From a virus, in the IMG/VR virus record IMGVR_UViG_3300047489_000453, positions 62,001-126,000 of that record: 64,000 nt of DNA. One strand, given 5' to 3'. Positions 15,393 to 62,047 of this stretch are shown here, piece by piece; within the stretch, counting starts at the first letter, position 1, and each line of letters begins with the position of its first letter. A model generated the notes under the pieces. It did no database searches. It was not told where the DNA came from and was given only the letters and a program-made list of their open reading frames with translations. The position numbers were made by a program, and so were the translations under genes.

Positions 15393-17216
15393 TTACATTT
15401 TCATACGAAATTTTTTATACCATACGGCGAACATAACTATAGTGAATAGCTCTTTTTGGGCATTTAGCCCAGGTCCGGCTGACGGCTTGCCGCTTGCCTT
15501 TTTAGGACCGATATGGTTTACATTATTTAAATATTTGTTGTCTATATCTGCGGAGTTTATTTCGAATATTTCCATTATTTCCCGGTCACTAAGAATATCT
15601 CTGAAATAAGCCCTTATAGGTGAATTCTTCTTGGCCGGGTAGGCCTGAGTGCCGATTACCCAATCGTCAGTAGGAGCCCTCCAGCCTGTCTTGTTTTTAG
15701 TTGTTATAAACTCTGGGAGCTTTGAGTTGTAAGCAAGCCTTAGTAAGTTTTTATTGCACTGATCCCATCTTAGCTTGGAATGCTTTGGAGCGGCTTTTAG
15801 GTTTCCAGGTATACTTCTAGCAAAGTTTTTAAAAACATTACACATCATTGGAAACCTGGCTTCCATTCCAAAGGCCATTCCCAACTTGTCGTTTCTTACT
15901 AAAAAATCCTCACTTAAAGTGTGGAGGCTCTCTATGTACATTATGTCATTAAGATTATTACCAGTCAGGCCGCCTTTTGGAATCCACGACATAAGATACT
16001 CGTGCTGATCTTTGTTTGTAAGCGCCTTTGCTGGATCTAATAGTTTTCTGTGGTGTAGCCTAAGGCTGTCAAGCCTGTCATTAAAAGTGGCATGATTAAA
16101 GTAGTGCTTGTACCCGGCTAGCAGTTCGTCTCCTCCGTCACCGCTCAATGTGACTATTACGCCGTTGTCGCGCAGAAACTTATTAGTGGCGTAATAAGCC
16201 GAGTAACTTTTACCCTGCCTAGGCTCTTCAAGGGCCAGAACCGCAGACTCAAGATTGTCCAGCCAAGCCTGTTCGTTTATTTTTATTTCTTTATGGTCAG
16301 AGCCATAAAGCTCTGCAAGCTGCTTGGCTAAGACGGCATCCTCGTTATGGTTGCACTTTTTATGCGGAATATCAAATTTTGTGGAAAAGGTATGGGCGCT
16401 TATACCAAGTGATTTTGACATTTCGTAAAGAACAGACGAGCTGTCCATGCCGCCGCTAAGAAACAAGCCTACCTGCCTGCGCCCCATAAGTGTCATACTT
16501 ACGGCTTGTTTAAGCTTATCGTGAAGTAGAAGCGGAATGTCTTCTTCGTTCGAAGTAAATGGGTCTATCGGCCTGTTATTAATATTACTGCTATATTTGA
16601 CTCCTGTTCTTATATCCAGCTCTATAATTTCACCGGGTACAAGCCTGCTTATATTCTTGAAGCACGTTATTGGCCCGGCCGTCAGGCCTGAATAATAGAA
16701 GTGCTTGAACCCGTCTATGGACACTTTTCTCTCAAACCCAAGCTCAAGTAAGCTTGCCACCTCTGACGAGAATGCGAGTTTATTTTTTAGATATCCATAG
16801 AATAAAGGCTTGGCTCCGTTACTATCCCTTGCCAGTAGCAGCTTCTTTGATTTCTTATTATAAATAGCCACGGCAAACATACCGTCGCACTCGTATAAAA
16901 AGTCTTTTCCAAACTTTTCATACCCTTTGATTAAAACTTCGGTGTCTGTATCAGACACGAAGTCGCCGCCTATCTTAGCTCTAAGGGATTTGTAGTTATA
17001 GATTTCGCCGTTGTATACCATGACACTTGATTCAGTGTGCCATGGCTGGCTTGATTGTGGAGGCGTATCCACTATTGATAAAAGATTATGCCCCAAGGTT
17101 ATAAAGTCGTCGCCCCATATACCTTCGCCGTCTGGGCCTCTGTGTCTTGCTTTTTTAACCATGGCCGGCATGGCGCCGGTGTCATCTTTCCAACAAAATC
17201 CATGAATACCGCACAT
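15393..17216 (-). CDS. asnB: Asparagine synthetase B (glutamine-hydrolysing)
   Basis: A full-length 607-residue enzyme that makes an amide from a carboxylate using glutamine and ATP. The mature nucleophile Cys2 (MCGIHGF) fixes the start. The glutaminase domain has HRGPDGEG, MVYNGEIYNY and SDTDTEVL. The synthetase domain has the PP-loop FLSGGMDSS at about residue 255, and TLSGDGGDELLAGY. In polysaccharide clusters such enzymes often amidate sugars rather than make free asparagine. Its place between GT9 and leader-bearing proteins fits glycan modification. A diverged copy of the 16-bp palindrome (two mismatches) lies at 17057-17072. Confidence 0.92.
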   Translation of the reverse strand: MCGIHGFCWKDDTGAMPAMVKKARHRGPDGEGIWGDDFITLGHNLLSIVDTPPQSSQPWHTESSVMVYNGEIYNYKSLRAKIGGDFVSDTDTEVLIKGYEKFGKDFLYECDGMFAVAIYNKKSKKLLLARDSNGAKPLFYGYLKNKLAFSSEVASLLELGFERKVSIDGFKHFYYSGLTAGPITCFKNISRLVPGEIIELDIRTGVKYSSNINNRPIDPFTSNEEDIPLLLHDKLKQAVSMTLMGRRQVGLFLSGGMDSSSVLYEMSKSLGISAHTFSTKFDIPHKKCNHNEDAVLAKQLAELYGSDHKEIKINEQAWLDNLESAVLALEEPRQGKSYSAYYATNKFLRDNGVIVTLSGDGGDELLAGYKHYFNHATFNDRLDSLRLHHRKLLDPAKALTNKDQHEYLMSWIPKGGLTGNNLNDIMYIESLHTLSEDFLVRNDKLGMAFGMEARFPMMCNVFKNFARSIPGNLKAAPKHSKLRWDQCNKNLLRLAYNSKLPEFITTKNKTGWRAPTDDWVIGTQAYPAKKNSPIRAYFRDILSDREIMEIFEINSADIDNKYLNNVNHIGPKKASGKPSAGPGLNAQKELFTIVMFAVWYKKFRMKM

Positions 17217-34508: not shown

Positions 34509-35132
34509 TTAGTTATGCGTAAATAAGTACCCATCAACCTTACTGGGCTTGAATGATGGATTCTCTTTAAGTTTGTTAACATACTCCCAGTCCGCTGCAA
34601 AGCTGTCACTGTTCCATTTAGAGCTTCCTACTAAGTCAGTATGAGCTATCCAGCCTCCTGCGTCTATAGCTCCTCTTTTAAGTTCTGTCTTTAGTGGTTT
34701 CCATAACTTATGGCTATGAACCATGTTACAGTATGCAAAGTTTGCTTTGTTATCCAGGGCGGTGCTTACCATCCACTCTAGATACACAGGAGCGTACCAG
34801 CAGTCAGCATTCATAGTTCCTATCCAGTTACAGCCAAGCCCCTTGCATATATCAAAGCCGGCCTGGCGCATATTGTGTCCAAACTTATTGGCTCTGGTAT
34901 CAGTGCTGTATTTAATAAACCTCTTATCCTTACCTATGGCAGAGACGCAGGCTTCCTCTGCTTCAGGAGTCCATGGGCCATCATGCATAATACATGCTGT
35001 GAAATTTCCGAATGTTTGGCATTTTAGGGCGTATATAAGAGATGATAGGCAATTTGTTTGATTGTAGGTTACTACAGCGAGTCCTACCTCGTTTGAGGTA
35101 GGTATCTTTCTACGCTTCCAGTATCTCATCAC
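34509..35132 (-). CDS. Family 2 glycosyltransferase (207 aa)
   Basis: GT-A fold: VGLAVVTYNQTNCLSSLIYAL is the first strand and helix, CIMHDGPW the donor-site loop, and GTMNADCWYAP the DxD-like site. Short for the family, so it lacks extra domains. Its ATG overlaps the stop of the preceding transferase. Confidence 0.75.
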   Translation of the reverse strand: MMRYWKRRKIPTSNEVGLAVVTYNQTNCLSSLIYALKCQTFGNFTACIMHDGPWTPEAEEACVSAIGKDKRFIKYSTDTRANKFGHNMRQAGFDICKGLGCNWIGTMNADCWYAPVYLEWMVSTALDNKANFAYCNMVHSHKLWKPLKTELKRGAIDAGGWIAHTDLVGSSKWNSDSFAADWEYVNKLKENPSFKPSKVDGYLFTHN

Positions 35133-35983
35133 TTTATCCTTAAAGAGCCTTTACCGGCGTTCCTTCCTGACGGGTGTCTAGTAACGCCTCTGTAGTGAAA
35201 AACAAAGCTTGAACAGGCTATTGAGTTTGATATGCCTAGTTTTTTCCAACGACCCATAAGTTCGTCTTCGTTTTTTACCATTTTATATTTTGGATTAAAG
35301 AATTGGCCTTCAGACAAATTATAGGCGCCAGCTTTCCATGTCTCTGCCTTGGATGCCAGACAAAAGCCATTTAGCGGGCCCTTTTCTATAATTCCTTTGC
35401 ACGAATCATATAGCCGGGTAGATACGCCGGCTATATATTCGTCAGAATCATTTACAGCATAGTCACTTATAAACCTTTTGACGTGCTGCCTAGGCCTGTG
35501 GCCCGGTGCATTCGTCATCGGCCCCACCACGCCTGCGCCTGCGCCTAGAGACTCTACGATTCCCTGACTCCACAGGCGGGGGAACTTCAGATCGGAGTTC
35601 CCCGCTATTATCACTTGGGCATGGTGCTCCAAGGCCAGGCTGATTCCCTTGTTCCATGACCGTGTCAAATTCTTGTCGTTCCGGGGGAATCTGAACGTCT
35701 GCAGTCGCGTCTTGGGATACTTCGACCACATTTCCGGGTTCCACTGCGGGCTCCCGTCGTCCACAAGAATCACTATCCCGTTCGCAGTGTTCGCCAGGAA
35801 GCTTTCCACAGCTATTTTCGCATAATCGAACTGGTTGTACGTCGGAATTACCACAGCTATTGTAGGCTGGGGCGTCTTGAAATGAGCCTCCAGCAGGTAC
35901 GCTGGCCTCCTTGCTCGTACAAGCCGGAGCAGCTTCTTCTGTTCCTTCGACCCCTTGCGGTCCTGTAGGCCCGGTACATCCAA
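35129..35983 (-). CDS. Family 2 glycosyltransferase starting inside the methyltransferase gene
   Basis: A 284-residue GT-A enzyme. TIAVVIPTYNQFDYAKIAVESF is broken here only by the 20-letter limit (core IPTYNQFDYAKIAVESF), then VILVDDGSPQW, NLTRSWNKGI and AGNSDLKF (DxD-like), and PLNGFCLASKAETW. The ATG at 35983 has AAGGAG seven bases upstream. Its first 164 codons lie within the gene at 35490-36737 in another frame, and both frames are open there. That stretch is visibly richer in G+C than the rest of the gene. Confidence 0.8.
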   Translation of the reverse strand: MDVPGLQDRKGSKEQKKLLRLVRARRPAYLLEAHFKTPQPTIAVVIPTYNQFDYAKIAVESFLANTANGIVILVDDGSPQWNPEMWSKYPKTRLQTFRFPRNDKNLTRSWNKGISLALEHHAQVIIAGNSDLKFPRLWSQGIVESLGAGAGVVGPMTNAPGHRPRQHVKRFISDYAVNDSDEYIAGVSTRLYDSCKGIIEKGPLNGFCLASKAETWKAGAYNLSEGQFFNPKYKMVKNEDELMGRWKKLGISNSIACSSFVFHYRGVTRHPSGRNAGKGSLRIK

Positions 35984-36737
35984 TAGCTCCTTCAGGCAAA
36001 AATGACTTCTCTGGGAAAAATTCTTTAGGCTCAGGCTCCCCGTAGCAGGGGCTAACTTGAGACATCAAGAGATTTCCAAATCCTTTTAAAGTATTAGGAG
36101 TAAGCTGGGCAGTACACCTCATACGAAGAACTTTTATCTGTAGAGGACCCTGGCCATAAGGGTTCTTATCAAAAGTGTCTACTGGATCAAGTTCGGTAAG
36201 AGTGATGCCGTGCTTCTTAAGAACGTCTGTACACTTTAGCAAAAAGGCACAGCCTTTATCAAAAATGCCGGGGTAGCAGTCATCTAATAAGATATGGGTG
36301 TTTGCACCGCATACATGTAGAACGCCTTCGAGGTCGCTGGTAATAGTTTCAAGGCTATGCCCTCCATCAACAAAAACTACGTTTGCTGTAGGAATGCCGG
36401 TAACGGCTTGCTCCAAAGTTACTCTGGTGTCGCCTTTTACCAGTTGCACCTTGCTGGCACCTGCGGCTATAAGCTTTTGCCTAATCTCTTCTCTGTTCAT
36501 GGCCAAGGCAGGTTTGCCGAATTCGTTTGCATTTACCTCTACGGTCATGTCTTCAAACAGATCAAACCCGTAGTATTCAATGTTGGTTCTTCCAACTTTC
36601 TTGGCAAACTTAATCATGGCAGTTGCCCTTACGCCATGATGTACGCCAATCTCTACAATTCGGAAGGGCTTGTTCTTTTTGCTATCGTTAGCTGTGCTAG
36701 AAATAGCTTCATTTAAATTATCGTACCTACTAGCCAT
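35490..36737 (-). CDS. SAM-dependent methyltransferase with overprinted C-terminal tail (415 aa)
   Basis: Residues 1-235 form a class I methyltransferase of the CmcI/Methyltransf_24 type: RIVEIGVHHGVRATAMIKF is motif I, then YYGFDLFEDM, VVFVDGGHSLETITSDLEG and HILLDDCYPG. From about residue 250 the protein runs on for 165 residues in a second frame over the next gene. That tail is disordered, starts with collagen-like triplets (GCTGPTGPQG), is rich in Cys, Pro, Gly and Glu, and ends with a run of six arginines. The domain's natural end is near the next gene's ribosome site, so the tail may be a product of stop-codon loss. Confidence 0.75.
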   Translation of the reverse strand: MASRYDNLNEAISSTANDSKKNKPFRIVEIGVHHGVRATAMIKFAKKVGRTNIEYYGFDLFEDMTVEVNANEFGKPALAMNREEIRQKLIAAGASKVQLVKGDTRVTLEQAVTGIPTANVVFVDGGHSLETITSDLEGVLHVCGANTHILLDDCYPGIFDKGCAFLLKCTDVLKKHGITLTELDPVDTFDKNPYGQGPLQIKVLRMRCTAQLTPNTLKGFGNLLMSQVSPCYGEPEPKEFFPEKSFLPEGAIGCTGPTGPQGVEGTEEAAPACTSKEASVPAGGSFQDAPAYNSCGNSDVQPVRLCENSCGKLPGEHCERDSDSCGRREPAVEPGNVVEVSQDATADVQIPPERQEFDTVMEQGNQPGLGAPCPSDNSGELRSEVPPPVESGNRRVSRRRRRRGGADDECTGPQA

Positions 36738-36746
36738 AATTAACTC

Positions 36747-37463
36747 CTACAAGGGTTTATCAGTTTTGCTTCTAGTGTACCCAGAAGTATCCTTAGGTTC
36801 TGGTAACTTATCAAGTCCTAATTCAGTTCTGAGCTTTACGTAGTCAGAGTCGTGGACCTTACCGCCGCAACCCAATAGCGGTGATAATGATAATACCGGA
36901 ATTTTAGCCTTTTCTCGAGCTAATTTTCTAGCAACATAGGTCCATTCTCTGTATTCAGCATAAACATCAGCTGGATCAAGACCGTGAAATCTCACATGTT
37001 GGTTGTGAGAATGGTGGTCTCCGCCTAGGCCTGACATGTCAACTCCGATTAGAAATATAGCTCTGGCTCCCATTCTGCAGGCCATATCTATGGCGGTCTG
37101 CTGAACTCCTCTGCCTATGAATAAAGTATTTTTGTCTTTTCCCAAAAACCCAGACCATTCAGGGTTAGTTTTAAAAACGTATCTGTTAGGGTCGTCAAAG
37201 GGTAGATTTGTAGGTGGTTTTTGTTTTACTATCCATTGGGTTTCTACGTCAGGATTTGACTTAACTACTTCTCTATATTCAACTTCCAGCTCAGGGTGAA
37301 CTGTTATTGAATAAGTAACTTTAAAGTTCTTATAAGCTTGATTGAGGCCTATAGATACTCTTCCACCCAAAAGGTCTTTGGGTATAAGCCTGGCTGTTGG
37401 GCCTGTTCCGACTATATAGATATCTGCGCCTCTATGTTTTCCGTAGAGTTTATCTATTAGCAT
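36747..37463 (-). CDS. DUF115/MptE-like Rossmann protein
   Basis: A 238-residue protein. DIYIVGTGPTARLIPKDL is a GPS-type loop typical of the family, then VSIGLNQAYKN, FIGRGVQQTAIDMACRMGA and IFLIGVDMSGLGGDHHSHN. In bacteria this family includes enzymes that transfer nonulosonic acids or other activated sugars. The gene overlaps the GT8 gene by 7 bases. A similar product is encoded at 38268-38879. Confidence 0.6.
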   Translation of the reverse strand: MLIDKLYGKHRGADIYIVGTGPTARLIPKDLLGGRVSIGLNQAYKNFKVTYSITVHPELEVEYREVVKSNPDVETQWIVKQKPPTNLPFDDPNRYVFKTNPEWSGFLGKDKNTLFIGRGVQQTAIDMACRMGARAIFLIGVDMSGLGGDHHSHNQHVRFHGLDPADVYAEYREWTYVARKLAREKAKIPVLSLSPLLGCGGKVHDSDYVKLRTELGLDKLPEPKDTSGYTRSKTDKPL

Positions 37464-61990: not shown

Positions 61991-62047
61991 AGCAAGGCTT
62001 AGAATCATTGATTATGATATGGCATTCAGCTAACGGGTCAACGTAAA

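Follow-up and report, generated by a model that had tools for sequence, protein, structure and literature searches.

A methyltransferase (MTase) reading frame and a glycosyltransferase (GT) reading frame overlap out of frame in the 64,000-nucleotide stretch of viral DNA analysed here (positions 62,001 to 126,000 of IMG/VR record IMGVR_UViG_3300047489_000453; hereafter the window), which raises the question of whether the same bases encode two proteins or whether the MTase frame has run on into its neighbour by chance. A first-pass annotation had proposed overprinting, in which a long C-terminal tail of the MTase is encoded over the catalytic part of the GT.

Organisation of the locus

The MTase gene (35490..36737, minus strand), delimited by its open frame, a Pfam match and its relatives, encodes a protein of 415 aa with an extended C-terminus, in which an enzyme domain (residues 1 to ~205) is followed by a variable linker and then by the overprinted tail. 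It matches Methyltransf_24 (PF13578) with 46 bits against a Pfam gathering cut-off of 26.3, and the homologue in the related lineage L001 also scores above this cut-off (31.3 bits). The MTase frame (36737-35490, minus strand) overlaps the GT frame (35983-35129, minus strand) at 35490-35983, the latter being read +1 relative to the former. The GT frame is open beyond the CTG codon at 35896, up to the TTG at 35983 and past that codon. The likely extent of the GT gene, based on Pfam and the analysis of its start, is 35129..35896 (minus strand), beginning at the CTG, and the likely true dual-coding overlap of the MTase tail frame with the +1 GT frame is about 407 bp (35490..35896, minus strand). 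The out-of-frame overlap reported in the first-pass annotation is thus retained, and its length of 494 bp is reduced to a conserved ~407 bp if counted from the CTG, or ~363 bp if counted over the catalytic core.

The GT scores 41.1 bits against Glycos_transf_2 (PF00535; gathering cut-off 23.3). The match covers GT residues 44-157, inside the overlapped half, and includes the DDGS donor-site motif recognised in the translation (35750..35761, minus strand), in agreement with the earlier placement of the donor motif inside the MTase frame. The motifs IPTYN, VDD and SP are invariant in all ten lineages compared below. Profile and motifs together identify this protein as a GT2-family glycosyltransferase, for which transferase activity is predicted.

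The pair is located in a run of glycosyltransferase-type genes. The next gene encodes a second short GT2 protein, GT207 (34509..35132, minus strand), which in outgroup clusters comes directly after a tail-less MTase. Upstream of the MTase is an MptE/sialyltransferase-like gene (36747..37463, minus strand). In L001 and L003 it is fused in frame to the MTase, forming a single open frame of 638-641 codons (L001:1527-3443 and L003:1509-3434), and the MptE-like part, the MTase and the tail may be a single protein in these two lineages. The virus record that contains the window comprises 136,787 bases and also encodes a ribonucleotide reductase, a UvsX-like recombinase and a DNA polymerase. A 607-aa protein encoded elsewhere in the window (15393-17216) has a weak QueC-like match related to queuosine biosynthesis and a strong match to an uncharacterised PHROG.

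Relatives of the gene pair

Scans of viral contigs for the GT, with duplicates checked, identified nine lineages besides the window, namely L001/L002, L003, L004, L006, L007, L008, L009, L010 and L016/L017/L018, which makes ten lineages on 13 contigs. The identity of the GT among the ten lineages is as low as 43%. A search with the tail alone added no new lineages. In annotated phages nothing matched the MTase, and the GT had only weak matches of a generic GT2 kind; a search of genome contigs with the GT returned distant bacterial GT2 proteins only. Among solved structures the MTase profile had no match and the GT profile matched generic GT2 proteins only; a literature search on this MTase/GT pair found nothing relevant.

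Conservation of the open tail frame

The MTase frame is open for 120-136 codons beyond the GT PTYN motif in each of the ten lineages, the window included, and the MTase reading is continuous into the tail in every lineage whose upstream part was examined. The conserved tail of the window, located over the GT catalytic core, consists of 121 codons and a stop (35490..35855, minus strand). The stop, TAG (35490..35492, minus strand), occupies an identical position relative to the GT codons in seven lineages, including the window; in L009, L010 and L016 it comes 6-16 codons further on. Stop codons in the tail frame of relatives, named in the first-pass annotation as the sign of a chance extension, do not occur in the overlap of any of the ten lineages, while the same phase in the remaining half of the GT contains 9-16 stops in each, and 11-17 are encountered when the overlap is read in the third forward frame. 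Given the synonymous codon usage of each genome, 6-12 tail-frame stops would be expected per lineage, and the probability of observing none ranges from 6e-4 to 3e-8; because the ten lineages share ancestry, these probabilities are not independent and must not be multiplied.

The G+C content is 0.57 over positions 35500-35999 versus 0.40-0.45 in the flanks, confirming the earlier observation that the overlap is richer in G+C than its surroundings. Two causes had been offered for this, the demands of two stop-free frames and the acquisition of a foreign segment. The peak recurs at the corresponding place in every relative, as dual coding predicts, and so bears no mark of recent acquisition; the notion of a GC-rich acquired segment was rejected, since the peak tracks the dual-coded stretch in every lineage.

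High G+C content could also leave a frame open with no selection acting on it, the MTase having lost its stop and the tail being junk kept open merely by the local composition of the GT gene. The overlap is indeed GC-rich, and of four bacterial GT homologues examined, one, L137 (66% GC), has an open tail phase and shows no sign of a tail; stops interrupt this phase in the other three. However, in every lineage the high G+C content is limited to the overlap and declines where the tail stops, stops are absent in ten of ten lineages, synonymous sites are conserved here and saturated elsewhere, and the residues of the tail are themselves conserved. A chance open frame was rejected on the stop counts together with third-position conservation, and we regard this explanation as exceedingly improbable.

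Selection on the second frame

Between the window and seven lineages, identity at fourfold degenerate sites of the GT reaches 0.68-0.73 within the overlap and 0.29-0.42 over the remainder of the gene; sites of this class in the neighbouring GT4 gene give 0.30-0.39, which is near saturation. When the window is compared with L010 and L016, the overlap shows hardly any rise in fourfold identity (0.29 and 0.35, respectively), so that support in these two lineages comes from the absence of stops and from residue similarity. Third-position variability in the MTase reading changes from ~0.6 before the overlap to 0.03-0.3 within it, as expected, and DNA identity drops at the tail's stop.

Similarity of the tails was compared with a null in which the GT proteins were held fixed and synonymous codons were redrawn at the overlap's own composition. 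It exceeded the null mean in every pair, with z values of 1.6-9.9 and a mean of 5.7. A second test, at the amino-acid level, kept matching third positions and redrew only the differing ones in two sets of disjoint pairs. Tail residues were altered more conservatively by the real third-position changes than by random ones (Stouffer z 4.48 and 3.87), and the non-overlapping half of the GT, used as a control, gave z values of -0.78 and -1.82. This test separates constraint on a protein from mere constraint on DNA.

The distinction matters for the possibility that a DNA or RNA element, such as a regulatory structure or a packaging or recombination site, causes the third-position constraint with no second protein involved. 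DNA conservation is extreme in the initial part of the overlap (identity 0.74-0.98 over 30 codons), and a conserved stretch could have passed between L006-L009 by recombination. However, the constraint covers the whole tail and stops where the tail stops, substitutions track amino-acid similarity in the tail frame, and this frame lacks the stops that abound in the third forward frame. RNA structure as the source of the constraint was rejected, since folding of the overlap gave no covariation (2/65 pairs). An element of this kind acting in place of a second protein appears very improbable. Over the first 30 GT-core codons L006-L009 share 0.89-0.94 of their DNA, compared with ~0.5 in places within the C-terminal half; this very high identity at the beginning of the overlap may be due partly to recombination, or to extreme constraint.

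The tail aligns across the ten lineages, and several controlled tests place its frame under purifying selection, in support of the overprinting proposed at first. The preservation of both frames by selection over ~400 bases in ten diverged phage lineages is well supported, and at the level of sequence comparison the overlap is confirmed as real, conserved dual coding and not a chance extension.

Translation start of the GT

The first-pass annotation had the GT start with a good ribosome site at TTG 35983. The Shine-Dalgarno (SD) sequence is only 2 nt distant from this codon, which is too close, and the frame is closed in relatives: L001, L003 and L004 contain GT-frame stops between the position equivalent to the TTG and the catalytic core. 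TTG 35983 was rejected as the start on these grounds. In L001 the GT-frame stop immediately precedes a conserved CTG.

A strong SD sequence, AAGGAGG (35906..35912, minus strand), is present inside the MTase frame and is conserved or nearly so in relatives. The likely GT start, CTG (35894..35896, minus strand), follows 9 nt after it, and a second CTG is adjacent (35893-35891). An SD of strength comparable to that of the window together with a CTG is found in L006, L008 and L010, and a weaker SD with a CTG in L004, while in L001, L003 and L007 the SD-CTG spacing is ~12 nt. The CTG is replaced by GTG after an SD in L009 and by ATG after an SD in L016. L004, L007 and L010 have no ATG, GTG or TTG before the PTYN motif; the other lineages do have GTG or TTG candidates, poorly placed, apart from the GTG and ATG of L009 and L016. 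In most lineages the SD of the GT is the strongest of the cluster, on an assumed anti-SD sequence. CTG is an inefficient start codon in E. coli. The conserved strong SD, the series of CTG, GTG and ATG at the same place and the want of a usable ATG, GTG or TTG in L004, L007 and L010 make initiation at CTG the preferred reading, and the GT of the window likely initiates internally at CTG 35896.

The main rival to internal initiation is +1 ribosomal frameshifting at TTT-C, where tRNA-Phe would slip from UUU to UUC and produce an MTase-GT fusion beside the MTase with its tail. The sequence TTT C occurs shortly before the GT core in nine of the ten lineages and specifies Phe in both frames, several lineages lack ATG, GTG or TTG starts, and fusions of the MTase are evidently tolerated, given the MptE-like fusions of L001 and L003. 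This rival is weakened because L016 lacks TTTC and has an SD and ATG at the equivalent place; in addition, L009 has an SD and GTG, the SD is conserved and in most lineages unrivalled within the cluster, no stop codon follows the TTT, and Phe in both frames yields TTTC anyway. We consider frameshifting unlikely and favour internal initiation at the CTG.

Composition of the tail and state of the MTase

Features common to the aligned tails of the ten lineages are conserved cysteines, an acidic segment resembling ERQEPD and a run rich in Arg. In the window the cysteines are arranged as C-x3-C-x7-C-x6-C (35763..35822, minus strand). They occupy tail positions 12, 16, 24 and 31 in eight lineages, with Arg in place of the first in L007, and positions 12, 16, 21, 28 and 34 in L010 and L016. 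The Arg-rich stretch near the end of the tail, RRRRRR in the window (35529..35546, minus strand), is kept in all lineages. Disorder-promoting residues account for 59-72% of the tail, and by its composition it is probably a disordered segment that is Cys-rich, then acidic, then Arg-rich. It matched no family in Pfam or NCBIfam, and assignment to a known domain was rejected accordingly. Its most likely role would be binding, with the cysteines holding metal and the arginines contacting nucleic acid or an acidic partner, which is a guess from composition.

Of the disordered Cys/Pro/Arg tail with collagen-like triplets described initially, the cysteines and arginines proved to be conserved, and the triplets were found in the window phage only, outside the conserved overlap. 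The collagen-like sequence GCTGPTGPQG (window 35952-35981) belongs to the MTase linker upstream of the CTG and is absent from all relatives.

The DGGH and DDxY-type motifs of the MTase are kept in the window, L004, L007 and L010, and one or other is altered in L001, L003, L006, L009 and L016. In L009 (2091-3431) the MTase core is 25-36% identical to the others and the tail is 51-64% identical to those of the nearer lineages; the GT constraint alone would give a tail identity of about 0.3. The altered motifs, and the better preservation of the tail than of the core in L009, suggest that the tail may matter independently of methylation. Persistence of the tail beside altered motifs (L001, L003, L006, L009) would also suit translation of the tail frame from a start of its own, as a small protein and not as the MTase C-terminus, but the uninterrupted reading from MTase into tail noted above argues against this, and we give such a protein little credence.

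Origin of the overlap

The tailed MTases group together in a single clade (support 99/96), separate from the outgroups L019, L020, L022, L161 and L162 and from other Methyltransf_24 proteins. In L019 and L020 a tail-less MTase is followed ~35 bp downstream by GT207, with no GT between them. The GT2 fold is widespread, and the tail is restricted to a single MTase clade. The tail-less outgroups without the GT, together with the single clade of tailed MTases, point to the tail as the newer, overprinted product; the GT would be the older frame.

Other genes were noted beside GT207 homologues. In a different phage arrangement a protein that looks FtsZ/tubulin-like by eye (L154:2294-3577; GGGTGSG motif) is encoded upstream of a GT207 homologue. 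Proteins that appear caspase-like by eye (MKKALCIGINTY...) are encoded after GT207 in outgroup clusters (L164:4642-5454, on the same contig as L019, and L162:5600-6469).

On the simplest history, a GT2 gene would have arrived directly behind the MTase gene, or over its end, in a phage glycan-type cluster. With loss of its original stop, the MTase would have come to read ~135 codons into the other frame of the GT gene, and this extension would have been recruited as a selected, probably disordered tail in which a Cys cluster is followed by an acidic middle part and a terminal part rich in Arg. A single transcript would then yield two proteins, the MTase with its tail and the GT, the latter started inside the MTase frame from a strong internal SD and, in most lineages, a weak CTG. 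As judged from sequence data, we consider this explanation as a whole to be quite probable; within it, we infer that both proteins are made, where the GT starts, the order of the evolutionary steps and a role for the tail. A bolder version, in which a new Cys-cluster/Arg-rich domain was born by overprinting, gained importance and has been kept even where the MTase motifs have eroded, with the GT made from a conserved internal CTG behind an unusually strong SD, is put forward tentatively as somewhat less likely than not.

Comparison with known overlaps

The best-known phage counterparts are spanins of the Rz/Rz1 type (PMC6139136). Lambda Rz/Rz1 and the P2-type spanins share with the present pair an out-of-frame overlap on one strand of a dsDNA phage genome; in spanins both products are functional, the +1 frame is common and gene callers often miss the overlap. 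However, spanins are two partner lysis proteins, whereas here two glycan-type enzymes overlap, the newer product being a tail at the C-terminus of the upstream one, and the older frame encodes a catalytic core. A terminal overlap is also known in phiX174, between the 3' end of gene A and the 5' start of gene K (PMC8227390); unlike this small ssDNA phage, the 137 kb virus record studied here would have little need to save 400 bp. Overprinted disordered proteins that arose de novo in viruses (PMC8227390) resemble the tail in being phylogenetically restricted, without a family and rich in disorder. Loss of a stop into the neighbouring gene, proposed as the origin of unidirectional overlaps (PMC3887535, PMC2478687), is also the origin proposed here.

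It is the length of the overlap that sets it apart, and the early remark that such overprinting is rare agrees with published surveys. Palleja et al. accepted no co-directional overlap longer than 60 bp as real among those studied, the longest true one, holD-rimI, being 56 bp (PMC2478687), and for DNA viruses the median overlap is 15.6 nt, or 14 nt for +1 shifts (PMC8903798), in contrast to ~400 bp here. Dual coding over such a distance is very unusual in dsDNA phages.

Long same-strand overlaps in prokaryotes are usually dismissed as misannotation (PMC2478687), whereas this one has been retained over ~400 bp despite saturated synonymous sites, in phages that are not short of genome space. The locus would offer a workable example of how a protein can be born by overprinting in a dsDNA phage, and outgroups without the feature are available for comparison; its natural series of CTG, GTG and ATG starts would allow weak internal starts to be tested.
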